Source: Alicyclobacillus acidocaldarius subsp. acidocaldarius Tc-4-1 | GTDB lineage: Bacteria; Bacillota; Bacilli; Alicyclobacillales; Alicyclobacillaceae | Length of the DNA stretch: 64,000 nucleotides | NCBI RefSeq assembly: GCF_000219875.1 | Contig: NC_017167.1 | Coordinates: 1,361,092-1,425,091, forward strand | Reading direction: 5' to 3' | Shown: piece by piece, positions 1,453-42,576 of the stretch | How the letters are laid out: each line of letters opens with the position of its first letter | How positions within the stretch are numbered: position 1 is the first letter of the stretch | Made by a program: the position numbers and the translations under genes | Notes under the pieces: model-generated | What the model was told of the DNA's origin: nothing | Seen by the model: only the letters and a program-made list of their open reading frames with translations | The model's database searches: none

Positions 1453-2364
1453 ATGCTCACTGGGAAACACCTGGTCTTCGTCGGCGGTGACAGGCGTCAG
1501 TTGGAAGTCATCGCGCAGATCACCGACAACGACGCGAGCGCCACGCTCATCGGCTTCTCGGAACTCGGGCGGACGTTTGCCGACACGACATTTGCCGAGC
1601 CGAGTGAGGCGGTGTTTGCGCAGGCGGACGCGCTCGTGCTGCCCGTCGCGGGCATGGAGGACGACGGGCGCGTCGATACCGCTTTCGCGCCGCAGCCCGT
1701 GGAATTGAAAGAGTCCCATTTTCAGGCCATGCGGCCCGGCACCTTCGTCTTCACGGGCATCGCGCATCGCGTGCTCACGGAGTGGTGCGAACGATACTCG
1801 CTCCGCCTGGTGAAGTTGATGGAGCTCGACGACGTGGCGATTTTGAATTCGATTCCCACTGCCGAAGGGGCCATTGCCATCGCGATGCAAGAGACAGACA
1901 TCACGCTGCACGGCGCCAAGACCGTCGTTCTCGGCTTCGGGCGGTGTGGCCAAACCCTCGCGCACAAGTTGCACGCCATGGGGGCCGTCGTCCACGTGTG
2001 CGCGTCGGACCCGCGCGATCTCGCCCGGATCCACGAGCAGTCGCTCACCCCTGTACCCCTGAAACACATTGAGCATGCCGTGCACGACGCGGATATCGTG
2101 TTCAACACCATTCCAGCCATGGTGCTGCCGGCGGCCGTGCTCAAGCGAATGCGGCGGGAAGCGGTGATCATCGATATCGCGTCCAAGCCCGGCGGCACGG
2201 ACTTTCGGTACGCCGAGCGGCGAGGCATCAAGGCCATTCTCACGCCGAGTCTGCCGGGACTTGTCGCGCCGCGGACGGCCGGGCGGATCATCGCGGCATC
2301 CATCACGCGCATGTTGGCAGACGACGACGAGCCGGAGTTCGAGGAGGAAGAGCTATGGATCTGA
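1453..2364 (+). CDS. dpaA: Dipicolinate synthase subunit A
   Basis: This is the NAD(P)-binding subunit of dipicolinate synthase (SpoVFA). With DpaB it oxidises dihydrodipicolinate to dipicolinic acid in the mother cell for import into the forespore core. The N-terminus MLTGKHLVFVGGDRRQLEVI is characteristic of SpoVFA. A Rossmann dinucleotide fold is seen at VVLGFGRCGQTLAHKL (about residue 158), followed by the conserved IIDIASKPGGTDF and LPGLVAPRTAG segments. The 303-residue length is normal. Start 1453 is preceded by GAGGTGA at 1441-1447 and agrees with the homologous N-terminus. An in-frame ATG at 1423 overlaps the sigma-K -10 element and would not be in the transcript. The gene overlaps dpaB by 10 bases, as expected for a translationally coupled pair. 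Confidence 0.95.
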   Translation: MLTGKHLVFVGGDRRQLEVIAQITDNDASATLIGFSELGRTFADTTFAEPSEAVFAQADALVLPVAGMEDDGRVDTAFAPQPVELKESHFQAMRPGTFVFTGIAHRVLTEWCERYSLRLVKLMELDDVAILNSIPTAEGAIAIAMQETDITLHGAKTVVLGFGRCGQTLAHKLHAMGAVVHVCASDPRDLARIHEQSLTPVPLKHIEHAVHDADIVFNTIPAMVLPAAVLKRMRREAVIIDIASKPGGTDFRYAERRGIKAILTPSLPGLVAPRTAGRIIAASITRMLADDDEPEFEEEELWI

Positions 2365-2957
2365 GCGGAAAGACTATCGGCTTTGGCGTGACCGGGAGTC
2401 ATTGCACTTACGAAGAGATATTCCCAGAAGTCAAGCGTCTGTGCGATCTCGGCGCGCGCGTCATTCCTGTATTTTCCCACCACGTGATGCACACCGATAC
2501 GAGGTTTGGCAAGGCGGGAGAGTGGGCTCGGAAAATTGAAGAAGTCACGGGCAACCAGGCCATCACCACGATTCCGGAGGCCGAGCCTCTCGGGCCGTCC
2601 AAGGCGCTCGACGCCTTCGTCATCGCGCCTTGCACGGCCAGCACCTTGAGCAGGTTCGCGCATGCCAACACCGACTCCCCGGTCCTGATGGCGGCCAAGG
2701 CCACCCTGCGCAACGGCCGGCCTGTCGTGGTTGCCATCTCCACCAATGATGGGCTAGGCTTGAGCTTGTACAACATCGCGACGCTCATGAACGCGAAGAA
2801 CATCTATTTTGTGCCGTTTGGCCAGGATGCGCCGCATGTTAAAATGAACTCGCTTGTTGCGCTCATGCGGTTGATTCCTGATACCGTCGCGGCTGCGCTC
2901 GAAGGGCGCCAACTCCAGCCGGTGCTCATCGAACGCTGGCGCGAAGATAGGCCTTGA
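2355..2957 (+). CDS. dpaB: Dipicolinate synthase subunit B
   Basis: This 200-residue flavoprotein-like subunit (SpoVFB) partners DpaA in dipicolinate synthesis. It begins MDLSGKTIGFGVTGSHCTYE, the flavodoxin-like N-terminal strand and loop of the family. The conserved APCTASTLSRFAHANTDSPV segment and the downstream GQDAPHVKMNSLVA block are also present. The start ATG lies 10 bases inside dpaA with GGAGGAAGAG before it. The protein is likely to be made only in the sporulating mother cell, from the sigma-K promoter upstream of dpaA. Length and gene order match B. subtilis spoVFA-spoVFB-asd-dapG-dapA. Confidence 0.95.
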   Translation: MDLSGKTIGFGVTGSHCTYEEIFPEVKRLCDLGARVIPVFSHHVMHTDTRFGKAGEWARKIEEVTGNQAITTIPEAEPLGPSKALDAFVIAPCTASTLSRFAHANTDSPVLMAAKATLRNGRPVVVAISTNDGLGLSLYNIATLMNAKNIYFVPFGQDAPHVKMNSLVALMRLIPDTVAAALEGRQLQPVLIERWREDRP

Positions 2958-2986
2958 GCGCGGATTCTGGGAGAAGGAGTTTGGGG

Positions 2987-4024
2987 ATGGAGAGAAAAGA
3001 TCGGTATCACATCGCGATTCTCGGCGCAACGGGCGCGGTGGGCAGGCGGATGTTGTCCACGCTCGAACGCCGCGGCGTTCCGGTCGGAGAGGTACGACTT
3101 CTCGCTTCCCCTCGGTCGGCGGGGACACGCATCCCGTTCCGAGGCGAGGAACTCACCGTCCAGGCCGTCCAGCCTGACTCATTCGACGGCGTGGACATCG
3201 CCTTGTTCAGCGCCGGCGCGTCCGCGAGCGAAGAATGGGCACCAGTCGCCGTGGAGCGCGGCGCCGTCGTGATCGACAACTCGTCGGCGTTCCGGATGCA
3301 TGAGGACGTGCCGCTCGTCGTGCCGGAGGTCAACCCGCACGCCCTCGCGGATCATCGCGGCATTATCGCGAATCCGAATTGCTCGACCATTCAATTGGTG
3401 GTGGTGCTGCATGCGCTGCGCGACTTTGGCCTCGAGCACGTGACCATCTCGACGTATCAGGCCGTGAGTGGCATGGGTCAGCGGGCGATTGACGCCCTCT
3501 TAGAGGAGGTCCGGCGGACGGAAGCCGGTGAGCGCGATGTGACCACGGTGTTCCCGGTGGTCAAACAGGACCGGCACGTGCCCATGGCGTTTAACGTTAT
3601 TCCGCAGTGCGACATCTTCCTCGACAACGGCTACACCAAGGAGGAAATGAAGCTCGTCAACGAGTCGAGAAAGATCCTGGAGCTCCCATCGCTGCGCGTC
3701 ACCCCTACAGCGGTACGCGTGCCCGTCCTGTACGGTCATGCCGAGTCGGTCGCGGTGCGCTTTCGCCAACCGGTTACCGTCGCAGAGGTCCGCGAGCGCC
3801 TCGCAAACGCCGAAAACGTCGTGTTGGTCGACGATCCGGCGTCCTGCGCCTATCCGCACCCTCGGATGGTGGAGGATCGCGGGGAGACGTTCGTCGGCCG
3901 TATTCGCCAGGATTTAGAAGATCCGTGCACGATGCTCCTTTTCATCGTCGCCGACAACTTGCTAAAAGGCGCGGCGTGGAACGCGGTGCAGATAGCTGAG
4001 AAACTCATCGAGATGGCGGGTTGA
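2987..4024 (+). CDS. asd: Aspartate-semialdehyde dehydrogenase
   Basis: The enzyme reduces aspartyl-4-phosphate to aspartate semialdehyde, the branch metabolite for lysine, threonine, methionine, diaminopimelate and dipicolinate. The N-terminal nucleotide-binding motif is ILGATGAVGR (residues 11-20). The catalytic cysteine is Cys132 in ANPNCSTIQL. The GIRQD-type segment GRIRQDLED near the C-terminus is also recognisable. The length is 345 residues, normal for the bacterial type. I chose ATG 2987 because AAGGAG stands 7 bases upstream. A TTG overlapping the dpaB stop is in frame but has no ribosome site. The gene is part of the dpa-asd-dapG-dapA operon, although vegetative need for the enzyme implies another promoter as well. 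Confidence 0.96.
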   Translation: MERKDRYHIAILGATGAVGRRMLSTLERRGVPVGEVRLLASPRSAGTRIPFRGEELTVQAVQPDSFDGVDIALFSAGASASEEWAPVAVERGAVVIDNSSAFRMHEDVPLVVPEVNPHALADHRGIIANPNCSTIQLVVVLHALRDFGLEHVTISTYQAVSGMGQRAIDALLEEVRRTEAGERDVTTVFPVVKQDRHVPMAFNVIPQCDIFLDNGYTKEEMKLVNESRKILELPSLRVTPTAVRVPVLYGHAESVAVRFRQPVTVAEVRERLANAENVVLVDDPASCAYPHPRMVEDRGETFVGRIRQDLEDPCTMLLFIVADNLLKGAAWNAVQIAEKLIEMAG

Positions 4025-4043
4025 GCGAAGGAGTCGAGCCGTT

Positions 4044-5261
4044 GTGAAGATTGTGGTGCAGAAGTTTGGGGGCACGTCCGTGGCGACACCGGAGACAAGG
4101 CGCGCGGCGTACCGCCACGTCGAGCGCGCCTTGGACGAGGGGTATGCGGTCGCCGTGGTGGTCTCCGCCATGGGGCGGCGCGGAGACCCATATGCGACAG
4201 ACACGCTTCTCAGCCTGTTGGATTCGGGGGATGGGGCAGGCCACGAGCCCGACCCGCGGGATCGCGACCTCCTGATGAGCTGCGGCGAGATTATCTCGGC
4301 GGTGGTCTTTGCGCACGAGCTTCGCAGTCGGGGCCACCGGGTGCGCGTCTTCACCGGAGCGCAGGCTGGGATTGTCACCTCGGACGACTTTGGCAATGCG
4401 CGCATCCTGGACGTGCGCACGGATGGGCTGCGGGCCGCGCTCGAAGCGGGTGAAATCGCAGTCGTGACGGGATTCCAGGGCTGCACGGAGTCCGGCGACG
4501 TGACCACGCTCGGGCGAGGTGGGAGCGACACGACGGCCACCGCCCTCGGCGTGGCGCTCGGGGCGGAAGTGGTCGACATCTTCACCGACGTCTCCGGGAT
4601 CATGACCGCGGATCCCCGCATCGTGGAGGACGCGCGCCAGCTGCGCCAGGTGACGTATACTGAGATCTGTAACATGGCCTACCAGGGGGCGAAGGTGATT
4701 CACCCGCGGGCCGTGGAGCTCGCGATGCAGGGCAACGTGCCCATCCGGGTGCGAAGCACCCTGTCGGACGATCCCGGCACGCTCGTGACGCAGGCCGCAG
4801 CGCATTTGGAGCACGGCCGCGTGATGGATCGCTACGTCACCGGGATTGCGCATACGCCGAACGTCACGCAGATTCGCGTACGGGGCGAGGGCATCGGGGC
4901 GTCGTCCATCTTTCGCCTGATGGCGGAACACCGCATCTCAGTGGACTTCATCTCGGTGACGCCCTCGGAGGTGGCGTTCACCGTACCGGACGCGCTCGCC
5001 GATGCGGCTGTCCACCACCTGTCTCAGCTCGGCTACCGAGTCGAGACGCGGCCCGGATGTGCGAAGGTATCGGCCGTTGGCGCGGGCATGATGGGCGTTC
5101 CTGGCGTGATGGCTCGAATTGTGGACGCGCTGGCGGAGGCCGGGATCGAGATCTTGCAGTCCGCGGATTCGCACACGACCATCTGGGTGCTGGTCGATGG
5201 AAGTCAGATGGAAGACGCAGTTCGCGCCCTTCACCGCGCCTTTCAGCTTTCCGGAACCTGA
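4044..5261 (+). CDS. dapG: Aspartokinase I (monofunctional aspartate kinase)
   Basis: The enzyme phosphorylates aspartate in the first step of the aspartate pathway. The N-terminal kinase signature KFGGTSV (residues 7-13) is present, and GRGGSDTTA marks the substrate and ATP site. The C-terminal third holds paired ACT domains, as expected for allosteric control by diaminopimelate or lysine. The 405-residue length is close to B. subtilis DapG. The start is GTG, with AAGGAG about 12 bases before it. The position between asd and dapA identifies it as the DapG isoform, which supplies diaminopimelate and dipicolinate. There is only about 20 bp between asd and this gene, so no lysine riboswitch is present here. 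Confidence 0.95.
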   Translation: MKIVVQKFGGTSVATPETRRAAYRHVERALDEGYAVAVVVSAMGRRGDPYATDTLLSLLDSGDGAGHEPDPRDRDLLMSCGEIISAVVFAHELRSRGHRVRVFTGAQAGIVTSDDFGNARILDVRTDGLRAALEAGEIAVVTGFQGCTESGDVTTLGRGGSDTTATALGVALGAEVVDIFTDVSGIMTADPRIVEDARQLRQVTYTEICNMAYQGAKVIHPRAVELAMQGNVPIRVRSTLSDDPGTLVTQAAAHLEHGRVMDRYVTGIAHTPNVTQIRVRGEGIGASSIFRLMAEHRISVDFISVTPSEVAFTVPDALADAAVHHLSQLGYRVETRPGCAKVSAVGAGMMGVPGVMARIVDALAEAGIEILQSADSHTTIWVLVDGSQMEDAVRALHRAFQLSGT

Positions 5262-5276
5262 ACAGGGGAGATGCGT

Positions 5277-6167
5277 ATGGATTTTGGAAGTCTGATCACG
5301 GCAATGGTCACGCCCTTCGATGCCACGGGTGCGCTCGACGAGGGGCGGCTGCGGCGGCTTGTGGATCATCTGATTGACACGGGCACGACCGCGGTCGTCG
5401 TGTGCGGGACGACAGGCGAATCGCCGACTCTGAGCCACTCGGAAAAGCTGCGCCTGTTCGATGCCACCCTTCGGGCGGTGGACGGCCGGATTCCGGTGAT
5501 TGCCGGCACGGGCACCAACTCCACCAAGGATTCCATTGAGCTCACGCTCGAGGCCGCCCGTCTCGGCGTGCAGGCTGTCATGCTCGTGACTCCGTATTAC
5601 AACCGCCCGTCCCAGGAAGGGCTGTACATGCACTTCGCCAACATCGCGGAATCGACCACCTTGCCCGTGATGTTGTACAACGTGCCGGGGCGCACGGGGG
5701 TCAATCTGCAGCCGCAGACCGCGCTTCAGCTGGCGGCCATCCCGAACATTGTCGCGCTCAAGGAGGCGAGCGGCGATTTTTCGCAGATCCTCCGCATTGC
5801 AGCCGAAAAGCCAGATGACTTTCTTCTCTACAGCGGGGACGACAAGTTCACGCTGCCCATGCTCGCCATTGGCGCCGCGGGCGTCGTGAGCGTCGCGGGC
5901 CACGTCGTCGGCCGGCAGATCCGCACGATGATGGATCTGTTCTGGCAAGGGCAGGTGGACGAGGCGGCCTACTGGAGTGCACGGCTGTTGCCCATCTTTG
6001 AAGCCATGTTTATGGAGGCGAGCCCGGCGCCGGTGAAGGAGGCGCTTTCCCTGATCGGCATCGACGTGGGATCCGTCCGCTCGCCGCTTGTGCCGGCCTC
6101 GAAGGCGCTCCGCGATCACCTGTATACGCTTCTGAACGCGCTCGGGGTCATTGAGGCAAGCGCATGA
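5277..6167 (+). CDS. dapA: 4-hydroxy-tetrahydrodipicolinate synthase
   Basis: The enzyme condenses pyruvate with aspartate semialdehyde to give the ring precursor of diaminopimelate and dipicolinate. The aldolase barrel signature GTTGES (residues 44-49) is present. The catalytic Tyr134 lies in YNVPGRT and the Schiff-base Lys162 in ALKEASGD. The length of 296 residues is typical. Two ATGs stand close together. The one at 5277 is favoured because GGGGAG is about 7 bases away, and because MDFGSLITAMVTPFD aligns with the B. subtilis start. The stop codon overlaps the next gene by 4 bases, so the downstream methyltransferase is probably cotranscribed. Confidence 0.96.
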   Translation: MDFGSLITAMVTPFDATGALDEGRLRRLVDHLIDTGTTAVVVCGTTGESPTLSHSEKLRLFDATLRAVDGRIPVIAGTGTNSTKDSIELTLEAARLGVQAVMLVTPYYNRPSQEGLYMHFANIAESTTLPVMLYNVPGRTGVNLQPQTALQLAAIPNIVALKEASGDFSQILRIAAEKPDDFLLYSGDDKFTLPMLAIGAAGVVSVAGHVVGRQIRTMMDLFWQGQVDEAAYWSARLLPIFEAMFMEASPAPVKEALSLIGIDVGSVRSPLVPASKALRDHLYTLLNALGVIEASA

Positions 6168-7429
6168 CAGAGAGGAGAGACGGGCTGTTGCCAACGCGCC
6201 TCGTCCTGCGCCGCGATCGAAGGCGGCGCTTGGAACAAGGTCATCCCTGGATTTATCGCTCGGAGGTGGAGCGGGTGGAAGGCCCGCTCGCTCCGGGCGA
6301 TCTCGTCGACATCGTGAATCACCAAGGCGTCTTTTTGGCCCGCGGCTACGCGAATCCCCAGTCGCAGATCTTTGCGCGCGTCCTGACCTATCGGCAAGGC
6401 GAGCCCATCGACGTCGATTTTTCATCCGGCGCTTTCAACAGGCGCTGGAGTACCGCCGCAGGTTTTCACCCGCAGGCGCTCTCCTATGGACGCGCCGTGT
6501 ACGGCGAGGCAGATTTTGTGCCTGGACTTGTCGTGGATCGGTTCGGAGAGGTGCTCGTCGCCCAGGTGCTGACTGCGGGCATGGAGCGGCTGTTTGCGCA
6601 GGCGCTTGAAGCGCTTGTCGAAGTGTACAAGCCCGTCGGGATCCTGGCGCGAAACGACGTGTCCGTGCGAGCACTGGAGGGGCTGCCTCTGGTGGTGGAG
6701 ACGGTGTACGGCGAGGTCCCCGACGTGGTCGACGTGATCGACAACGGGCTCACATTCGCAGTGGATCTGCGCGAAGGCCAAAAGACAGGGTATTTTTGGG
6801 ATCAGTCGGAGAACCGGGCGGCGATTCGACCGCTCATGACGGGCTGGACGGCGCGGCGCGCGCTGTTCGGCGAAGCTCCGGGGCATGTGGACGGCGCCCA
6901 TGTGCTCGACTGTTTCTGCCATACGGGGGCGTTCGCCGTGCATGCGCTGCACTACGGTGCGGCACACGTCACAGCGGTGGACATCTCTGCGGACGCCGTG
7001 GAGCTCGCGCGGCACAACGCTCAACGAAACGGCGTGTGGGATCGGATAGACTTCGCCGTGGCCAACGCGTTCGATTACCTGCGCGAACAGGATGCGCGCG
7101 GCGCGCGTTACGACGTGGTCATCCTGGATCCGCCGGCTTTTGCGAAGTCGCGGCACTCCGTCGATAGCGCGGCGAGAGGCTACAAGGAGATCAACCTCCG
7201 CGCCATGCGCATCCTGCGGGAGGGCGGCTTCCTCGTCACGGCGAGCTGTTCCTACCACATGTCGCCCGAGCGGTTTCGGGAGACCGTCCTGGAGGCGGCT
7301 GTCGATGCCCACAAGGTGCTGCGGGTCGTGCGCGACGCGCGCGCCGCAAGCGATCACCCCCAAATCGCCGGTGCCCCAGAACAGCACTACCTGAAGTTTC
7401 TCATCTACGAGGTGCGCAGTCGGCGGTGA
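6164..7429 (+). CDS. PUA-domain class I SAM-dependent rRNA methyltransferase (RlmI/YwbD-like)
   Basis: The protein resembles the RlmI family, which makes 5-methylcytosine in 23S rRNA. An N-terminal PUA RNA-binding domain covers about residues 8-90 (GHPWIYRSEVERVEGP, GFLARGYANP-like segment). A Rossmann methyltransferase domain follows, with DCFCHTGAFAVHAL binding SAM near residue 247, VTAVDISADAVELA, and the DPPAFAKSR motif. A TASCSYHM segment supplies a candidate catalytic cysteine. The 421-residue length is near that of the family. ATG overlaps the dapA stop (ATGA), showing translational coupling to the dap operon. The exact target nucleotide cannot be read from the sequence. Confidence 0.88.
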   Translation: MTERRDGLLPTRLVLRRDRRRRLEQGHPWIYRSEVERVEGPLAPGDLVDIVNHQGVFLARGYANPQSQIFARVLTYRQGEPIDVDFSSGAFNRRWSTAAGFHPQALSYGRAVYGEADFVPGLVVDRFGEVLVAQVLTAGMERLFAQALEALVEVYKPVGILARNDVSVRALEGLPLVVETVYGEVPDVVDVIDNGLTFAVDLREGQKTGYFWDQSENRAAIRPLMTGWTARRALFGEAPGHVDGAHVLDCFCHTGAFAVHALHYGAAHVTAVDISADAVELARHNAQRNGVWDRIDFAVANAFDYLREQDARGARYDVVILDPPAFAKSRHSVDSAARGYKEINLRAMRILREGGFLVTASCSYHMSPERFRETVLEAAVDAHKVLRVVRDARAASDHPQIAGAPEQHYLKFLIYEVRSRR

Positions 7430-27946: not shown

Positions 27947-28527
27947 TTGAATCTGGCAAATCGGATTACACTGGCCAGGATTCTGCTGGTGCCTGTCGTC
28001 TGCGTCATCCTGTTGGTCCCGTTCCACATCGGTTCGGTGACATTTCACGGACAGACCACCACCGCAAACGAGGTCCTGGCTGCGCTCGTCTTCATTGCGG
28101 CGGCGGCCACGGACGCACTGGACGGACGCATCGCGCGGAAGCGGAAGATGATCACAAACTTCGGCAAATTTCTCGACCCGCTGGCGGATAAGCTGTTGGT
28201 GTCGGCGGTGCTTATCATTCTGGTTCAAATGCAGCGCATGCCGGCCTGGGTCGCCATCGTGATCATCAGCCGCGAGTTCGCGGTCACCGGGCTCCGCCTC
28301 ATCGCCGCGGGAGACGGGGTGGTGGTGGCGGCAAGCCAGTGGGGTAAGTGGAAGACGACTGCACAGATGGTGGGAATCGTGCTTTTGATGTTGAATAATT
28401 TCCCTTTTCCGTCATCAATGTTCCGATTGCCCAGGTGATGATCTACGTGATGGTGATCATGACTGTGGTGTCGGCGATCGACTATTTCTTGAAAAATCGA
28501 GAGATGATTTTGTCGCGCGCCTCGTGA
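27947..28527 (+). CDS. pgsA: CDP-diacylglycerol-glycerol-3-phosphate 3-phosphatidyltransferase, apparent -1 frameshift near the C-terminus
   Basis: This membrane enzyme makes phosphatidylglycerophosphate, the first committed step to phosphatidylglycerol. The CDP-alcohol phosphotransferase motif is complete: DALDGRIAR followed by GKFLDPLAD. The frame starting at TTG 27947 runs through LLMLNNFPF and then stops early at 28438 after an unrelated tail. Shifting by -1 at 28402-28408 gives SVINVPIAQVMIYVMVIMTV and a normal end at 28527. The product is then 193 residues, the usual PgsA length. The shift site C CCT TTT has the X XXY YYZ form of a -1 slippery heptamer. A missing T in the T4 run is the simpler explanation. 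The gene is essential in Bacillus, so loss of function is unlikely. Confidence 0.85.
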
Positions 28528-35515: not shown

Positions 35516-36472
35516 GTGGCGCGAATGCTTGTGGCCGACGCACACGTAGACGTCCTGATGAAGTTGGCGGAGGGCAACGTGGCGTTTCTGGACGACTCGC
35601 CCCATCTGCGCGCGAATTATCATTCCCTGCGCGAAGGTGGTGTCGCCACACAAGTGTTCGCGCTCTACGTCGATCCGTCCTTGGACTCGTACACGCAACT
35701 CGCGCAAGTTTTACGGCAGATCGACGCCTTCTACCAGCAAATTGCTATCCTGGCCGACGTTCGGGCGGTGCGTTCCAAGGAAGATCTACGCATCGCCCGC
35801 CAACAGGGACAAATGGCCGCCATCTTGTCACTTGAGGGCGGCGGCTGCCTGCGCGGGCGCGTCGAACTCCTTCGCGTACTGTACCGGCTCGGCGTTCGAG
35901 GCGTCGGTCTGACGTGGAACGACGCGAACGAGTTGGCCGACGGATGCGGCGAGTTGCGAGGCGCTGGGCTCACCCGCGCTGGGCGCGATGTGCTGCGTGA
36001 GATGCAGCATCTGTCGATGTGGATCGATCTCGCCCATCTGCATGACGCGGGTGTGCGCGACGTGCTCCGGCTCACGGATGGACCCGTCATGGCGTCGCAC
36101 GCGAACGCGCGTGCTGTCCATCCTCACCGCAGGAATCTGACGGACGATGTCATTCGCGAAATCATCCGCCGGGACGGGTGGATGGGGTTGACGTTTCATC
36201 CATCATTCGTCGGACCGGATCCGGTCGGGGTGGACGACGTGTTCCGCCATTTGGATCACGTGCTCGATCTCGGAGGGCACCGCCACGTCGGCTTTGGATC
36301 GGATTTCGACGGCACGTCTGCGGACATTCCCGGCCTCGCGGCCAGCCGGGACTACCGCACGTTCGCGGAACGCCTGTGCGACCGGTACGGCCAAGACCTC
36401 GCGCAGGACTTCCTCTTCCGCAATTTTGAAGCGTTTCTGTTGCGTCAGCTTCCTTCTACGTCGCTGCTCTGA
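35516..36472 (+). CDS. Membrane dipeptidase family (M19) peptidase
   Basis: This 318-residue zinc dipeptidase is related to renal dipeptidase. The first metal motif HxD occurs at DAHVDVLMK (residues 9-11). The bridging region is LSLEGGG, with a glutamate. Later histidines lie in VMASHANARAVHPHRRN, and VGFGSDFDG is the conserved C-terminal signature. There is no signal peptide, so it acts in the cytosol. It would cleave dipeptides, including those with D-residues. The start is GTG with AAAGGA 9 bases upstream, 16 bases after spoVS, so the two are probably cotranscribed, possibly in early sporulation. Confidence 0.9.
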   Translation: MARMLVADAHVDVLMKLAEGNVAFLDDSPHLRANYHSLREGGVATQVFALYVDPSLDSYTQLAQVLRQIDAFYQQIAILADVRAVRSKEDLRIARQQGQMAAILSLEGGGCLRGRVELLRVLYRLGVRGVGLTWNDANELADGCGELRGAGLTRAGRDVLREMQHLSMWIDLAHLHDAGVRDVLRLTDGPVMASHANARAVHPHRRNLTDDVIREIIRRDGWMGLTFHPSFVGPDPVGVDDVFRHLDHVLDLGGHRHVGFGSDFDGTSADIPGLAASRDYRTFAERLCDRYGQDLAQDFLFRNFEAFLLRQLPSTSLL

Positions 36473-36785
36473 CGGAATCGCCAAATCGCCGCCTGAGGCG
36501 GCCTATGGTTGGATTGCGCCACCGACGTTTGCGGCAAAACCGAAACCTCTGCAAGTCTGGGAGAACCCTCCGGAAATCCTCCGCTTAAACCCTGTGGGCC
36601 ATCGCCCAATTTTTCCCCTCCCGTGTTCATCTCGGCGCACCTCCATTCGCCCATGCATACGATGTGCTGTGAGCGCGACTGGGCAGAAGCCGCCGGGCGC
36701 GATGCCCGCTGGCTCCTTGCCTCGCAATCGGTCCGATCCCTGCGAGCGCAGGTCCGCTCGATTTCTGCACAGAGGAGGTAGCCGC
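36473..36785 (+). other. Intergenic region before cotE
   Basis: No gene is seen in these 313 bases. A GCCGCC-TGA-GGCGGC hairpin (36488-36502) near the start may weakly terminate the dipeptidase transcript, but no T-run follows. A mother-cell-type promoter candidate lies further down. The remainder shows no clear signal. Confidence 0.5.
36639..36664 (+). promoter_or_regulatory. Candidate mother-cell (sigma-K/sigma-E-like) promoter of cotE
   Basis: CATACGATG (36656-36664) differs from the sigma-K -10 CATAnnnTA at one base and also resembles the sigma-E -10. GCAC with AC at 36639-36640 lies 15 bases upstream. B. subtilis cotE is read from both sigma-E and sigma-K promoters. Placement about 120 bases before the gene is plausible, but the match is imperfect. 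Confidence 0.4.
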
Positions 36786-37322
36786 ATGGTGCTGTCCAGT
36801 AAAGACCTCAGCTACCGGGAAATCATGGCCAATGCTGTGTGTGGCCGCGGCAACAAGTACTCTCAGACCACGTACACGGTTCGCCCGGCCCACCGCCCGA
36901 GCACAATCGGAGGCTGCTGGGTGATGAACCACGTGTACGAGGCGGAGTTGGTCGGCGACTACGTCGAGGTCCGGGGCCGGTTTGACATCAATGTATGGTA
37001 CTCGTACAACGGCAACACGGACACGGCGGTCGCCAAGGAGACCGTCACGTACACGGAACAGATTGCCCTTCGCGACATCGACGACGCCTGTGTGCGCGAC
37101 AGCCGCGAGGTGTGCGTGCACGTGATCCAGAGCCCGAACTGCCTGGACGCCACCCTGACGGGCAACGGCTCCGAGGTGTTGGTGCGCGTCGAGAAGGAAC
37201 TCGGCGTCGAGGTGATTGGTCAGACCAAGTTGTGTGTCGTCACGGTCGACCTCGCGGACAAGAAAGACGCCGACTTCTTCGAAGAGGAGAGCCAGGTCGA
37301 GGAAGTCGAGATTGAAGACTGA
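36786..37322 (+). CDS. cotE: Outer spore coat morphogenetic protein CotE
   Basis: CotE forms a layer around the forespore on which the outer coat assembles. This 178-residue protein starts at ATG with GAGGAGGT upstream. It contains YREIMANAVCGRGNKYSQTT, GGCWVMNHVYEAE and DINVWYSYNGNTDTAVAKET, all conserved in CotE. It ends in the usual acidic tail (EEESQVEEVEIED). A longer open frame reaching into the intergenic region is accidental. A hairpin follows. In Bacillus cotE lies between ymcA and mutS. Here it heads a cluster of ATP-grasp and amidoligase genes upstream of miaB. Confidence 0.95.
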   Translation: MVLSSKDLSYREIMANAVCGRGNKYSQTTYTVRPAHRPSTIGGCWVMNHVYEAELVGDYVEVRGRFDINVWYSYNGNTDTAVAKETVTYTEQIALRDIDDACVRDSREVCVHVIQSPNCLDATLTGNGSEVLVRVEKELGVEVIGQTKLCVVTVDLADKKDADFFEEESQVEEVEIED

Positions 37323-37338
37323 AGCCGCGACCGCATTC

Positions 37339-37364
37339 GAGGGGGCAGGCGCCCCCTCCCTTTG
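37339..37364 (+). terminator. Possible attenuating terminator after cotE
   Basis: An 8-bp all-GC-rich stem (GAGGGGGC with GCCCCCTC) and a 4-base loop are followed by CCTTTG. The short T-run suggests partial read-through into the ATP-grasp genes. Confidence 0.5.
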
Positions 37365-37384
37365 TGTCCGGAGGAGGTGCGCGC

Positions 37385-38461
37385 ATGGGGGATGACGTTG
37401 CACGCGCACAACTGACCATCTACGCGGACGGCCCCTTTCCGGGGTCGCGGAAGTTCGGCGAACAGACGCGGTTGTTCCAAGATCTCACCCTCCTCGGGCG
37501 CGGTGGGGGCGTGGACGTACAAGTCCTGACGCCAGGCGATCTATCGGCCGGACGCGCGCATGTGTTTACGGGCGCCGAGTGGGAAGTAGCGCCACGCAGG
37601 GACGTCGGCATGGTGTTGCGCCGGTCCGGCGTCTTCCACCGCCAACCAGCCGTCGCCGTAAGGGAATTAGTCGCGCTTCGCCGACAGGGGCTTCTACATA
37701 CACTCCCTCGACAAAGTGGGCATAAATGGAAACTGTACACCTGGCTTCGCGTACACCAGCGCCTACGACCTCATCTCCCGCCCACCTGGTTGTGCGCTCG
37801 GATGGAGGACCTCGTGGCGCTTCTCACCAGGCAGGATGACATGTATGTCAAGCCGCTCAACGGGACGCAGGGCCAGGGCGTCCACCGCGTGCGGAGGCGA
37901 GCGGGCCGCATCGAGCTATGGCCTGCGTCGGGCTGCGAACCTATCGTGGTGGCGACGCCGTCCGATCTCTCACGCGCTTGGCCCACTCGTTCGTGGCTGC
38001 CATCCGTGGCTCAGCAAACCATCCCCCTCGCTCGTACGGGAAACAGGCCATTTGACCTTCGATGGCTCGTCTGCGACGGTGACCAACCGCGGATCATCGC
38101 CAGGGTCGCGCGCGTTGCCAAGCCTCAGGCGGTCACCACCAACATTCACACGGGCAGTGAACCGCGGGCCGCGGATGCTGTCCTCGCCGAGGTGTTCGGG
38201 CCGCAGCCGGCGAGCGATCTCGTCGACCAGTTGGACGAGATCGCCATGACCATCGCGCAGCTCGCTCGCGAGCGATTTGGGCCGTATGCCGAACTGGGGC
38301 TGGATCTCGCGGTGAGCGAGGACGGCCACCCGTACTTCATCGAGCTCAACCCCACGCCCGGCCGCAAAATGCTGCGCCGGCTGGATCCCAAGGTGCATCG
38401 TCTGTCACTCCAAGCGTTACTGGAATATGCTATCCAAGTTCGACAGCGGCGCGGGGGATGA
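37385..38461 (+). CDS. YheC/YheD-family ATP-grasp protein (first copy)
   Basis: This 358-residue protein belongs to the YheC/YheD endospore coat-associated family, whose C-terminal half is an ATP-grasp ligase. KLYTWLRVHQRLRPHLPPTW leads into the fold, the ATP-binding lysine is in MYVKPLNGTQGQGVHRV, and the metal site lies in ELGLDLAVSEDGHPYFIELN. The N-terminal third carries the family's PLIG-like beta domain in divergent form. The reaction is predicted to form an amide or peptide bond with ATP, but the substrate is unknown. The start ATG has GGAGGAGGTG upstream. Its stop overlaps the next ATG. Location after cotE suggests expression in the mother cell and a coat function (inference). Confidence 0.85.
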   Translation: MGDDVARAQLTIYADGPFPGSRKFGEQTRLFQDLTLLGRGGGVDVQVLTPGDLSAGRAHVFTGAEWEVAPRRDVGMVLRRSGVFHRQPAVAVRELVALRRQGLLHTLPRQSGHKWKLYTWLRVHQRLRPHLPPTWLCARMEDLVALLTRQDDMYVKPLNGTQGQGVHRVRRRAGRIELWPASGCEPIVVATPSDLSRAWPTRSWLPSVAQQTIPLARTGNRPFDLRWLVCDGDQPRIIARVARVAKPQAVTTNIHTGSEPRAADAVLAEVFGPQPASDLVDQLDEIAMTIAQLARERFGPYAELGLDLAVSEDGHPYFIELNPTPGRKMLRRLDPKVHRLSLQALLEYAIQVRQRRGG

Positions 38462-39591
38462 CTGCGGGGGTGAGGAAGATGGTGCAGCGGCCGCTCATTG
38501 GCATTCTGGATCACCCGCGATGGGACGTACGCCGGGAGACCCTCCGAGAGAGTGATCAAATGGCAGGGATTCGACGGATGGTCGAGATCGCGCAATCGCT
38601 GGGGGCGGAGGCGTTCGTGTTTGGCTTAGGGGACGTCGATCTCCAGGCGAGGCGCATCCGCGGCTTCTCTCGTGCAAACGGCCAATGGGTGGAGCGCGTT
38701 TATCCGTTTCCCGACGTGATCTACGACCAGCTGGTCTCTCGCAAAATCGAGCGAAACGAGGCCTATCGATCGATTCGACAGGCGCTTTCATCCGCGTACA
38801 GGGATCGGTTCTTCAACGACGGCTTCTTTGACAAGTGGCAGATCTACGAATGGTTGCGGCGCTCTCCCGTGCGTTCGCACGTGCCTGAAACCATTCGTCA
38901 CAGGTCTCTCGCTCAGGCGGCGGCCTTTGTCGCCCGCCACCACGTCACGTTTCTCAAGCCCCTTCACGGGAGCCTCGGTCTCGGCATCGTTCGCTTTGCG
39001 CTCGAGAAAGACGGGTCCGTTTCGTACGAATGGAAGCGATCGCGGGACGGCGTCGTCCGCGGCACCGCCGCTTCACCCGCCGAGGCCGTGCAACTGTTCC
39101 GCACGCAATTGCGAAGGCGGCCGTATATTTGGCAGCAGGGTATCGATCTTGTCGCGCTCGACGGACGGCCTGTCGATGTTCGCATCCTGCTGCAGCGCGA
39201 CGGCACCGGCGCTTGGAAGCGCACCAAGATGTTTGCCCGGGTCGCGAAATCCGGGGACTTCACTTCCAATCTCGCGACGGGCGGCGGCGCCATGCCTGTG
39301 GACCGCGCGATTCTCGGCGCCTTTCCTGACGAAGCGAAGAAGCGTGTGCGCGCTTCGATCCGCCGCATCGCCGAGGCGGTGGCGGAGGCGGTTGAAGCGG
39401 GCGCGGGACGCACCTTTGGCGAACTCGGTATCGATCTCGGCGTCGATCGGCGCGGTTTCGTGTGGGTCATTGAGGTCAACTCCAAGCCGCGCAAAGCACC
39501 TGCGTCGGCGAGCGGCCGCGACGACCTGGTCGAACTTTCGTTCAGGCGACCGATGGAATACGCGCTGTTCCTTGCGCGCCGGCCGTCGTGA
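38458..39591 (+). CDS. YheC/YheD-family ATP-grasp protein (second copy)
   Basis: This 377-residue protein is a paralogue of its neighbour. It opens with RPLIGILDHPRWD and a YPFPDVIYDQLVSRKIER block, the N-terminal YheC/D domain. The ATP-grasp half follows: DKWQIYEWLRRSPVRSHVPE, then the binding lysine in TFLKPLHGSLGLGIVRF, and the metal ligands in GELGIDLGVDRRGFVWVIEV with NSKPRK. All key residues are present. An ATG at 38479 is an alternative start. The ATGA overlap with the first copy indicates translational coupling. Confidence 0.86.
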   Translation: MTAGVRKMVQRPLIGILDHPRWDVRRETLRESDQMAGIRRMVEIAQSLGAEAFVFGLGDVDLQARRIRGFSRANGQWVERVYPFPDVIYDQLVSRKIERNEAYRSIRQALSSAYRDRFFNDGFFDKWQIYEWLRRSPVRSHVPETIRHRSLAQAAAFVARHHVTFLKPLHGSLGLGIVRFALEKDGSVSYEWKRSRDGVVRGTAASPAEAVQLFRTQLRRRPYIWQQGIDLVALDGRPVDVRILLQRDGTGAWKRTKMFARVAKSGDFTSNLATGGGAMPVDRAILGAFPDEAKKRVRASIRRIAEAVAEAVEAGAGRTFGELGIDLGVDRRGFVWVIEVNSKPRKAPASASGRDDLVELSFRRPMEYALFLARRPS

Positions 39592-39618
39592 GTCGCGCCG
39601 AACCAGGGGGGAGTGCAG

Positions 39619-41081
39619 ATGGCGTACTATCTGTTGTTTAAAAACCAGCCCTCGGCCAGACGGCTCATGGCAAGCGTGCCTCGCCTCTCCAGGTACACGG
39701 CGAGCAATCGAATGACGGATCGCGACGTATTGGTTCGATGGGGAATGATGGAGGAGAGCGATCCGGCCCACGGCACCGTGCTGAACAGCAGCGAAGCCCA
39801 GCGCCGCATCGCTTCGCGCGCGCAGATGGCGAAGTTTTAAGGCGGGTGGGCGTGCGCGTCGCGCCGCGCGTGAATCGAGACGGGCTTCCCACGACGTTCA
39901 GCCGTCAATACCGCATCCCGATTTTCGACTTTGTGCCCATCGGCTGCTTTCGCTCGGACTCGGGGGTGGACTGGACCTCATCCCGCATTTCGCGGATCCA
40001 CGATTCGTTCGAGGAGGTGCCGCTCGACAGCGATGGACAGACGCGCCGTGCCACCTACTTGGCGACGCGCACGCTGCACGCGCTGGGGCTCGACTTTGGC
40101 CTCGTCTCCATTGGCGTCTCCGATCGCGGCTTTCTCCAGGTACTGGACGTGAGCGCCGCGCCCATCTTGGAGGGCCGCTTACTGGAGTTATACCGGGATG
40201 CCATCCAGCGCTTCGTCGAGCGGGAAGAAGAGTGGCGCCGCCTAGGTCCGCCGACCGTCACGCTTGGCGCCGATGTCGAAATCATGCTGAGAAATGGGCA
40301 AGGGAAGATGGTACTTGCAAGCAAGTATTTTCCTAGAAAGGGCCGGATAGGATGCGACGACCGAAGCGTCCAATTCGACGGCCGGCGCTTGCCCCTGATG
40401 GAGCTTCGACCGGCACCCGATTCATCACCCGAGGGTCTCTTGCTGAACCTGCGTGCGTTGATGCAGGAAGCGAGCGAGATCATCAATCGACCTGGCGTCG
40501 AATGGCGAGCGGGCAGTGCTCCGTTTCGGCCGTACTGCACGGGAGGGCACATTCACATCTCCGGGGTGTCGCTCGGCGCGCGGTTGGTCCGGGCGCTCGA
40601 TCACTACGTCGGGTTACCCCTCATGGCCGTCGAAGACCCCGTCCGCGCTCAGTGGCGTCGGCCCAAGTACGGATTTTTGGGCGACGTGCGCCAAAAGTCG
40701 CACGGCGGATTCGAGTACCGGACGCCCGCGAGCTTCGTATGTAGTCACGCGGCTACCCGTGCCGCGTTTCACCTCGCTCACCTGGTCGCTCGTCATCACC
40801 GCGAACTTCCTTTGTACGACATCTACTCTCCGCAACGTCAATTGGCGTTTTACAGTGCTGACCGCGAGGCGCTGCGGCCCATCCTGCTGCGCAACATCGA
40901 CGCCATCCGTGCGCACCCCGAGTACGCCCAGCATCAGGACGCCATCGAACCGCTGTTTGCGATGATCGAACGTGGCGAGACCTGGGACGAGACGGTGGAC
41001 GTTCGCCAGGAGTGGGGAGTACCCCTCCGCCGCGCGCAGGGGCCGAAACGGACACATGTCTCCGCAGCCCGAAGCGTGTAG
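39619..41081 (+). CDS. Putative amidoligase (phiEco32-like COOH-NH2 ligase type 2), apparent frameshift
   Basis: The gene appears as two overlapping frames. The first, from ATG 39619 (GGGGGAG upstream), encodes MAYYLLFKNQPSARRLMASV, then DVLVRWGM and LNSSEAQRRIASRAQMAKF, and stops at 39840. A -1 shift at the T4 run 39835-39838 continues as LRRVGVRVAPRV and runs to 41081, giving a protein of about 487 residues. The C-terminal half has the glutamine-synthetase-like amidoligase motifs: LGADVEIML (metal-binding acids), GCDDRSVQFD with LMELRP, GGHIHISG and GFEYRTPAS. Such ligases are predicted to make amide bonds on peptides or proteins. No slippery heptamer is present, so a lost T (error or mutation) is likelier than programmed shifting. 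It lies between the second and third ATP-grasp genes. Confidence 0.75.
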
Positions 41082-41107
41082 ATTGCACGTCGCGTGAGGT
41101 GGGGGTC

Positions 41108-42229
41108 ATGAGTGAGGCATTCCGTGGAAATGTCCACAACGGCCAGGCGAGAGACGTCTCGTGGCGGCATGATGGCCCGGCCTTTGCCATTCTCACCGCG
41201 GAACATCCAACTGGATTCGCCGGATCGCGGCGTTATTTCCGTGATATTCTTGCAGCGGGACAAAAGCGAGGATTCCTCGTGTACGTGATCACGCCAGAAT
41301 ATGTTTCGGAAGAAGCTTACTGGAAAGGGTACGTGAGGTTGGGTTTTCGCAATTGGCAACGGATGTGGTTGCCTCGCCCGCTTGCAGTGTACAATCGCAT
41401 CCCAAACCGGGCGCTCGAAGCGAGCGCTCCGGTGCAACAGGCGCGCGCCACGCTCCAGGCGATGGGCATCCCGTTCTTCAATCACCGTTACTTCAACAAG
41501 GCCAAGATTTACGAGGCCGTTCGCCGCGCAGGGCTCGGCCAGCACCTCCCGGAGACAAGGATGTTTGCGGGTGCGGACTCGCTGATGGACCTTTTGAGCC
41601 GCCACCAAGCGGTCTATTTGAAGCCCGTGGGCGGCAGCATCGGGCGCGGCATCGTGCGCGTGGAGCGCCGGGGCGACACCTTCGAGGTGTGGGCGCAGCG
41701 CGCCCATCGGGCGGAGCATTGGACGGTTCACGAGTTTCGAGAGTTGGACGAAGCCCTTCGTCGAGCGCGTCTCCCAGGCGCCTACGTGGCGCAGGCTGCC
41801 GTGCCTGTCATTCGCTTCGAGGGGCGACCGTGCGACGCGCGCGTTCTCCTTCAGCGCCCAGGGCCGAGCTGGCAGGTTGTCGGTTATGGGATTCGCGTCA
41901 GCGGTGCAGAAAGCATTACGAGCCACGTCCCGAACGGCGGCCATATCGCAGACCGGTGGACCGTGCTGCGCGAAGTGTTCGGGTCCCGCAGTGAAGAAGT
42001 CGATGCCAGGCTCGTCTCGTTCACCCGATCCGCCGCAGCAGCGATTGAGCGGTCGATGCCAGGGCACGTGCGCGAAATGTCCATCGACGTCGGCCTCGAC
42101 GAAGCCGGACACCCATGGTTGTTCGAAGCGAACGCGAAGCCGATGCGATTTGACGAGCCCGACATCGCTCGCCGCGCGAGCGCGGGCGTGATCGAGATCT
42201 TGCGGGACCTCGCCGGCATCTCGCGTTAG
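41108..42229 (+). CDS. YheC/YheD-family ATP-grasp protein (third copy)
   Basis: This 373-residue protein begins with a unique 25-residue tail and then AFAILTAEHPTGFAGSRRYF. The middle has LAVYNRIPNRALEAS and NKAKIYEAVRRAGLGQHLPE, followed by the ATP lysine in VYLKPVGGSIGRGIVRVERR. The metal region is MSIDVGLDEAGHPWLFEANA. It is thus a complete ATP-grasp unit but quite diverged from the other two copies. ATG 41108 has GAGGTGGGGG upstream. A longer open frame overlapping the amidoligase gene is not supported. The stop codon overlaps that of a convergent small gene. Confidence 0.85.
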   Translation: MSEAFRGNVHNGQARDVSWRHDGPAFAILTAEHPTGFAGSRRYFRDILAAGQKRGFLVYVITPEYVSEEAYWKGYVRLGFRNWQRMWLPRPLAVYNRIPNRALEASAPVQQARATLQAMGIPFFNHRYFNKAKIYEAVRRAGLGQHLPETRMFAGADSLMDLLSRHQAVYLKPVGGSIGRGIVRVERRGDTFEVWAQRAHRAEHWTVHEFRELDEALRRARLPGAYVAQAAVPVIRFEGRPCDARVLLQRPGPSWQVVGYGIRVSGAESITSHVPNGGHIADRWTVLREVFGSRSEEVDARLVSFTRSAAAAIERSMPGHVREMSIDVGLDEAGHPWLFEANAKPMRFDEPDIARRASAGVIEILRDLAGISR

Positions 42230-42474
42230 ACGAGCGGCCACGGCAGCAGAAAGCGCTGCTTGCCTTTGGTCACATATTGAATTTGGTGCAGGGGAATATA
42301 GTGCCACTTGCTGTCGTACACCAGCAGAGCTCGATGGGATTGGAGAATCTCGTCGATCTCAGGGAAATCGCTGGCGTACGATTTTTTATTGGGCGCGACC
42401 ACGGCGCCGTCCAGCGGGTGCTCGCGGAAGGCCACGTGCACCTCGAAGGTAGGAACGTTCACTTTCTCCGACAT
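42226..42474 (-). CDS. Hypothetical small protein convergent with the ATP-grasp cluster
   Basis: I do not recognise this 82-residue protein. It begins MSEKVNVPTFEVHVAFREHP and has a mixed alpha/beta pattern with many aromatic residues (LLVYDSKWHYIPLHQIQYV). There is no signal or membrane segment. The start codon has GAGGA 7 bases upstream on the minus strand, which supports reality. Its stop codon overlaps that of the third ATP-grasp gene. It may be expressed from a promoter in the miaB upstream region reading left. No function can be given. Confidence 0.65.
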   Translation of the reverse strand: MSEKVNVPTFEVHVAFREHPLDGAVVAPNKKSYASDFPEIDEILQSHRALLVYDSKWHYIPLHQIQYVTKGKQRFLLPWPLV

Positions 42475-42492
42475 GACGAGTTCCTCACCACG

Positions 42493-42521
42493 TTTATACA
42501 CTTTACTGCTTATGGTATCAT
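42493..42521 (+). promoter_or_regulatory. Sigma-A promoter of the miaB-mutSL operon
   Basis: TTTATA (42493-42498) and TATCAT (42516-42521, five of six) have 17 bases between them. Transcription would start near 42528, about 50 bases before miaB. Confidence 0.55.
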
Positions 42522-42576
42522 GTGAGATTAGATGTGCAAGACGCAACCATCATTCCAGACGACGGAGTGTTGAGAT

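Follow-up and report, generated by a model that had tools for sequence, protein, structure and literature searches.

A conserved cotE-linked operon of predicted ATP-dependent amide ligases, probably for spore coat modification, in Alicyclobacillus acidocaldarius

Our results indicate that a five-gene cluster of Alicyclobacillus acidocaldarius subsp. acidocaldarius Tc-4-1, consisting of cotE, three genes for ATP-grasp ligases related to YheC and YheD (here YheCDs; Y1, Y2, and Y3), and one gene for a COOH-NH2 amidoligase (AL), is probably a conserved operon for sporulation, from which the mother cell makes CotE along with four ATP-dependent amide ligases that modify the spore coat. The cluster lies at positions 36786 to 42229 of the 64,000-nucleotide stretch that we analyzed (NC_017167.1, 1,361,092 to 1,425,091, forward strand), referred to as the window. 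This reading builds on computed gene content, linkage, co-occurrence, gene fusion, catalytic residues, and fold, and it carries with it predictions on mother-cell expression, the order of steps, the acceptor, and the chemistry of the product.

All five genes are on the + strand, with successive gaps of about 62, -4 (or 17), 21 to 27, and 26 nucleotides (nt). The product of cotE (36786 to 37322), the outer spore coat morphogenetic protein, matches the PF10628 profile with E=8.8e-61 (204.9 bits against a cut-off of 25). The three YheCDs match PF14398, with a curated cut-off of 26.8 bits: Y1 (37385 to 38461) with E=3e-49 and 168 bits, Y2 (38479 to 39591, alternative start at 38458) with E=4.9e-77 and 259 bits, and Y3 (41108 to 42229) with E=2.5e-59 and 201 bits. 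AL matches the full PF14395 domain, positions 1 to 254, with E=8.3e-105 (350 bits against a cut-off of 25), and carries the motifs LGADVEIML, GGHIHISG, and GFEYRTP. None of the five proteins gave an above-cut-off match in NCBIfam. The Pfam profiles and gene calls thus bear out the coordinates, families, motifs, and single-strand layout given in an earlier note on this DNA, which had been made from the letters alone.

The arrangement of cotE with the ligase genes is far beyond chance. AL was detected in 57 of the 61 genomes searched, the source genome included. We collected 50 loci from the same order, one of which has a contig ending before cotE, leaving 49 that are complete; the order cotE-Y1-Y2-AL-Y3 is found in every one of these 49, in 34 as such and in 15 with a second Y3-like gene. 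When 80 named loci were compared, this layout held in Alicyclobacillus, Ferroacidibacillus, Sulfoacidibacillus, Tumebacillus, and Kyrpidia. Of 141 genomes sampled evenly from the Bacilli, 88 have AL, 107 CotE, and 102 YheCD, and not one of the 88 AL-bearing genomes lacked CotE or YheCD. CotE is encoded directly upstream of AL, on the same strand and within 7 kb, in 86 of these 88 genomes; in one of the two exceptions AL lies at the end of a short contig, and in the other close to the beginning of a large one. The co-occurrence of AL and CotE in this sample gives a Fisher p of 2e-19, and a second Fisher p is 2e-23, both values ignoring shared ancestry. The median number of YheCDs is 7 in AL-bearing genomes and 2.5 in YheCD-containing genomes without AL. 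Across the phylum, AL was found in 28 of 199 genomes. Outside the Bacilli, a YheCD gene adjoins AL in 25 of 25 AL genomes and CotE occurs in the same stretch in 16 of 25, typically as CotE-CotE-YheCD x4-AL or CotE-YheCD-AL-YheCD x3. The earlier note had proposed a dedicated pathway beside cotE and a search for it among spore formers, and the linkage found in the order, the Bacilli, and the clostridial clusters is what that proposal called for; a lack of such linkage among relatives, which the note had named as a ground for rejecting it, is not what we observed.

The clostridial CotE proteins, such as those of Thermincola (Clostridia) and a Peptococcaceae metagenome-assembled genome (MAG), score well above the Pfam CotE cut-off. 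A 2012 survey did not see CotE in clostridia (PMC3533761). In Thermincola-like Clostridia, two tandem CotE-family proteins start the ligase cluster (L155:3008-4307; also L149, L156, and L161).

It could be argued that the genes stay together only through the conserved spoVS-miaB-cotE-mutS region and that the ligases are unrelated in role to CotE. The genes spoVS, rny, miaB, mutS, and that for an M19 dipeptidase do remain close to the cluster in relatives, but the clostridial sets of CotE, YheCD, and AL stay together without miaB or mutS, and this explanation also leaves aside the strict co-occurrence of AL with CotE in the 88 Bacilli genomes. We find it hardly credible.

The three YheCDs are old paralogs that have been kept apart and not recent copies, judging from a tree of 76 sequences, which was midpoint rooted and in which transfer between lineages is possible. 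Four clades were supported (A, 98/87; B, 97/98; C, 99/93; D, 97/95), each mixing Alicyclobacillales with clostridial members. Y1 falls in clade B, Y2 in clade A, and Y3 in clade D. Clade C occurs in the sister family, Tumebacillus, Kyrpidia, and a Peptococcaceae MAG, and is absent from the sampled loci of the family of the window; the fourth YheCD of the source genome is encoded elsewhere in the genome and belongs to clade B. Such a pattern is what enzymes with different jobs would be expected to show.

We know of no amide-ligase activity for the PF14398 family. The ATP-grasp landmarks, namely, two lysines, a Glu-x3-Asp pair, and the Glu-x-Asn metal ligands, show no variation among 150 YheCDs of the order, Y1 to Y3 included (K114, K156, E303, D307, E320, and N322 in Y1; K131, K172, E323, D327, E340, and N342 in Y3). 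The three genes are complete and retain all ATP-grasp catalytic residues, which is consistent with the amide-ligase activity that the earlier note predicted for them. These invariant ATP and metal ligands, together with the four old clades, argue against the idea that the YheCDs serve chiefly as structural proteins of the coat, with catalysis having little weight. That idea draws on Bacillus subtilis, where YheD makes a shell around the spore and interacts strongly with itself (PMC7911427), and we regard it as very unlikely.

Matches of YheCDs to solved structures are weak at the sequence level (glutathione synthetase, E=3e-4). The AlphaFold model of Y2 (predicted local distance difference test [pLDDT], 94) is closest to a graspetide ligase (7mgv, the top match), RimK, glutathione synthetase, ArgX, and D-Ala-D-Ala ligase. 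In these enzymes a carboxylate is activated and then attacked by an amine, and several of them act on proteins or peptides. The top match raises the possibility of a graspetide-like system, in which a small precursor peptide made for this purpose is cross-linked by the ATP-grasps. However, no precursor gene was found in the gaps of the operon, the largest being about 62 nt, with distant precursors lying beyond this search, and the presence of several ligases together with a glutamine synthetase-type ligase differs from the graspetide layout. We therefore hold a graspetide-like system to be most improbable.

AL is built from two domains. The model of an intact ortholog (pLDDT, 93) matches two groups of folds, the RimK-type ATP-grasps and the group of YbdK, glutamate-cysteine ligase (GCS), and glutamine synthetase (3ln7, 1r8g). 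Residues 1 to 210 give profile matches to YheCD (E, 3e-5 to 6e-5; probability, 64 to 73%) and the C-terminal half gives none; no solved relative of AL was found by sequence (best E=0.5). The active-site columns are invariant across the aligned sequences and are present in the window copy. Compared with RimK and the YheCDs, the N-terminal domain has neither the metal-binding Asn nor the nucleotide lid and the lysine loop that belongs to it. Since these are lost, the domain is presumably inactive and may hold the acceptor, as suggested by our reading of the sequence and the length of the domain.

AL and YheCD are found as one polypeptide in three genomes, with open frames of 894 to 913 codons (L170:9548-13646, L171:9011-13102, and L172:4601-12603). 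These fusions lend support to joint action of the two ligase types, as the earlier note had supposed; that the ligases act in sequence, perhaps on CotE-bound layers, is its further proposal. They lie away from cotE; a gene of similar size follows the fusion in 3 of 3 cases and is Mur-ligase-like in 2 of 2 tested. At least one (L172) is beside genes for phosphoenolpyruvate mutase, a thiamine pyrophosphate (TPP) enzyme, and an aminotransferase/nucleotidyltransferase. The fusion loci possibly represent a second, phosphonate-linked ligase pathway.

Such surroundings, which resemble those of a metabolite or polymer pathway, speak for the nearest rival to coat-protein modification, namely, that the ligases build a free nonribosomal peptide or poly-amino acid for the coat. 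The small-molecule ligases among the closest folds, glutathione synthetase and D-Ala-D-Ala ligase, point the same way, but these are equaled or outscored by enzymes whose substrates are proteins or peptides, namely, RimK, ArgX, and the graspetide ligases. That the ligase genes are so closely linked to the gene of a morphogenetic protein of the coat also speaks against a free peptide, as does the lack of precursor-synthesis genes in the operon of the window. Synthesis of a free product is thus unlikely in our judgment, although more deserving of attention than the other alternatives.

Several observations nevertheless count against coat-protein modification by the whole cluster. The linkage taken by itself is equally compatible with protein modification and with separate peptide synthesis. 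Among the 80 named loci, those of Paenibacillus, Ammoniphilus, and Thermoactinomycetaceae-like genera show cotE-AL-mutS with no YheCD gene next to these. Some lineages carry AL and YheCD with no CotE detected, so CotE is not obligatory. The acidic C-terminal tail of CotE was considered as a substrate of AL and is unsupported in this role: it cannot be singled out as the target because it is equally acidic in 17 AL-less and 93 AL-associated sequences (p=0.34). Finally, AL is split in this assembly. Of the four ligase genes, the three YheCD genes are complete, as the earlier note had stated, and the amidoligase gene is not intact.

The first 73 to 75 codons of AL (39613 to 39840), which match the N terminus of intact orthologs and encode the beginning of the lid-less domain, end at a TAA, and the remainder (39849 to 41081), with the rest of that domain and the COOH-NH2 ligase domain (about 40263 to 41021), is in a different frame. 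A T-run at 39835 to 39838 is one base short of the corresponding site in relatives, with the gap seen in a direct alignment with a near relative (G002), and the reading frame is uninterrupted at this site in every relative inspected. The COOH-NH2 ligase domain is whole and retains all invariant columns. When the window was scanned against G002 for one-base deletions, a second was found in pgsA, at about 28399 to 28408 (near 28407), which shifts the last 40 codons of a protein that is 98.8% identical to its G002 counterpart before the break. Both deletions adjoin T/C runs. Because the second, similar deletion hits pgsA, which is usually essential, a sequencing or assembly error is likelier for AL than a loss of function. 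A programmed frameshift was considered and rejected, a sequencing error or a recent mutation being preferred, as no slippery heptamer was seen by eye and the frame stays open in all inspected relatives.

Expression in the mother cell, assumed in the earlier note, is suggested by two lines of evidence. Of 54 loci, 40 carry a CATAnnnT motif between 60 and 180 bp ahead of cotE, whereas 4.1 such loci were expected (maximum of 9 in 200 shuffles). The motif usually reads CATACGAT or CATAGGAT; the window has CATACGAT at 36656 to 36663 (+). We take this motif to be of the -10 type recognized by sigma-E and sigma-K.

The second line of evidence comes from genomes in which cotE is interrupted. In four Alicyclobacillus genomes, including A. 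suci and A. fastidiosus, cotE is split at the identical codon (IGQ^TKLC) by elements of 2.9 to 5.0 kb with a large serine recombinase gene just inside the left junction (A. suci, L096:3664-7053; A. fastidiosus, L097:~1500-7043; also L041-L044). In A. suci, joining at a shared CAAACGAA core restores the CotE frame. These look like skin-like intervening elements that are excised in sporulation. Their layout is the same as that of the elements known in sigK, spsM, spoVFB, gerE, and yabG; cotE is not among the intervened genes named in the reports on these (PMC5595907, PMC10747680, PMC13141910). If the elements are excised in the mother cell, as is usual for elements of this kind, only in that cell would the cotE promoter be connected to cotE and the ligase genes behind it. 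The cotE of the window itself is intact. The B. subtilis cotE gene has promoters for both sigma-E and sigma-K, and yheC and yheD are under sigma-E control with expression raised by SpoIIID (PMC517825). Between cotE and Y1 of the window, a G+C hairpin at 37339 to 37358 (+), with an 8-pair stem and a poor T tail, may dampen read-through as an attenuator or weak terminator.

On this basis, we propose the following scheme for coat modification. The four ligases would be produced with CotE in the mother cell. Each YheCD would activate a carboxylate as an acyl-phosphate and couple it to an amine, and AL would add a further coupling through its glutamate-cysteine ligase-type domain, docking the acceptor on the lid-less ATP-grasp domain. 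Working in turn on a shared acceptor, the ligases would lengthen the side chains of a coat protein, or of a peptide bound to the coat, or cross-link them. More tentatively, and with doubt prevailing on our side, the cluster may be the remnant of an ancestral Bacillota pathway that predates the split of Bacilli and clostridia, in which CotE, four distinct ATP-grasp ligases, and an amidoligase with a lid-less docking domain gave a coat protein a defined side chain or cross-link; one of the four ATP-grasp ligases would since have disappeared from the Alicyclobacillaceae, and the amidoligase from Bacillus.

On the + strand of the window, the cluster is preceded by rny, spoVS, and the M19 membrane dipeptidase gene (35516 to 36472), whose position immediately before cotE is shared by almost all relatives. 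Its product, a peptidase encoded next to peptide ligases, could take part in the pathway of the latter. Y3 is followed by a gene for a 106-residue protein (42226 to 42546, -), then by miaB, a ricA/ylbF-type gene, and mutS; the 106-residue protein has no clear family match, and its conservation extends over the genus and some of the family.

Known finishing reactions of the coat are those of the Tgl transglutaminase, dityrosine formation, and phosphorylation by CotH. Beyond these few, the chemical finishing of the spore coat is largely open, and YheC and YheD have been coat-associated proteins for two decades without an assigned function. In the literature searched, we found no functional study of YheC/D, amidoligases, or coat polyglutamylation. 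Alicyclobacillus, culturable juice spoilers with very resistant spores, offers in this compact conserved operon a defined gene set and a defined chemistry to look for, namely, new amide or isopeptide bonds in the coat.

The general idea of coat-modifying ligases is not new and had already been predicted from gene neighborhoods. Iyer et al. (2009, Mol BioSyst 5:1636) reportedly described a Firmicutes neighborhood of a YheC-like ATP-grasp, a COOH-NH2 ligase of type 2, and CotE with a role in coat modification, and the Pfam texts for PF14395 and PF14398 are said to give the same association. Since this neighborhood had been predicted, our cluster belongs to a known predicted kind; it has the same three families, association, and predicted role, and the Alicyclobacillus version has three YheCDs. 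The operonic pairing of ATP-grasp and COOH-NH2 ligases has also been credited to Iyer et al. 2009 (PMC4431377). New here are the four-paralog ancestry, the lid-less ATP-grasp domain of AL, the clostridial CotE clusters, and the cotE-intervening elements. The yheC and yheD genes of B. subtilis encode members of the same ATP-grasp family, with sigma-E/SpoIIID control and a spore-surface location (PMC517825, PMC7911427). Unlike the Alicyclobacillus cluster, B. subtilis has no AL, as a control search indicated. Its yheC and yheD genes presumably do not adjoin cotE. The YheCDs share their fold and catalytic residues with ATP-grasps of the RimK, ArgX, and tubulin-tyrosine ligase type, from which they are distant in sequence. 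AL resembles YbdK and the GshF-type fusion of glutamate-cysteine ligase and ATP-grasp in that it likewise joins GCS-like and ATP-grasp-like domains, but its ATP-grasp part is N-terminal and, with the lid and metal-binding Asn missing, presumably inactive.

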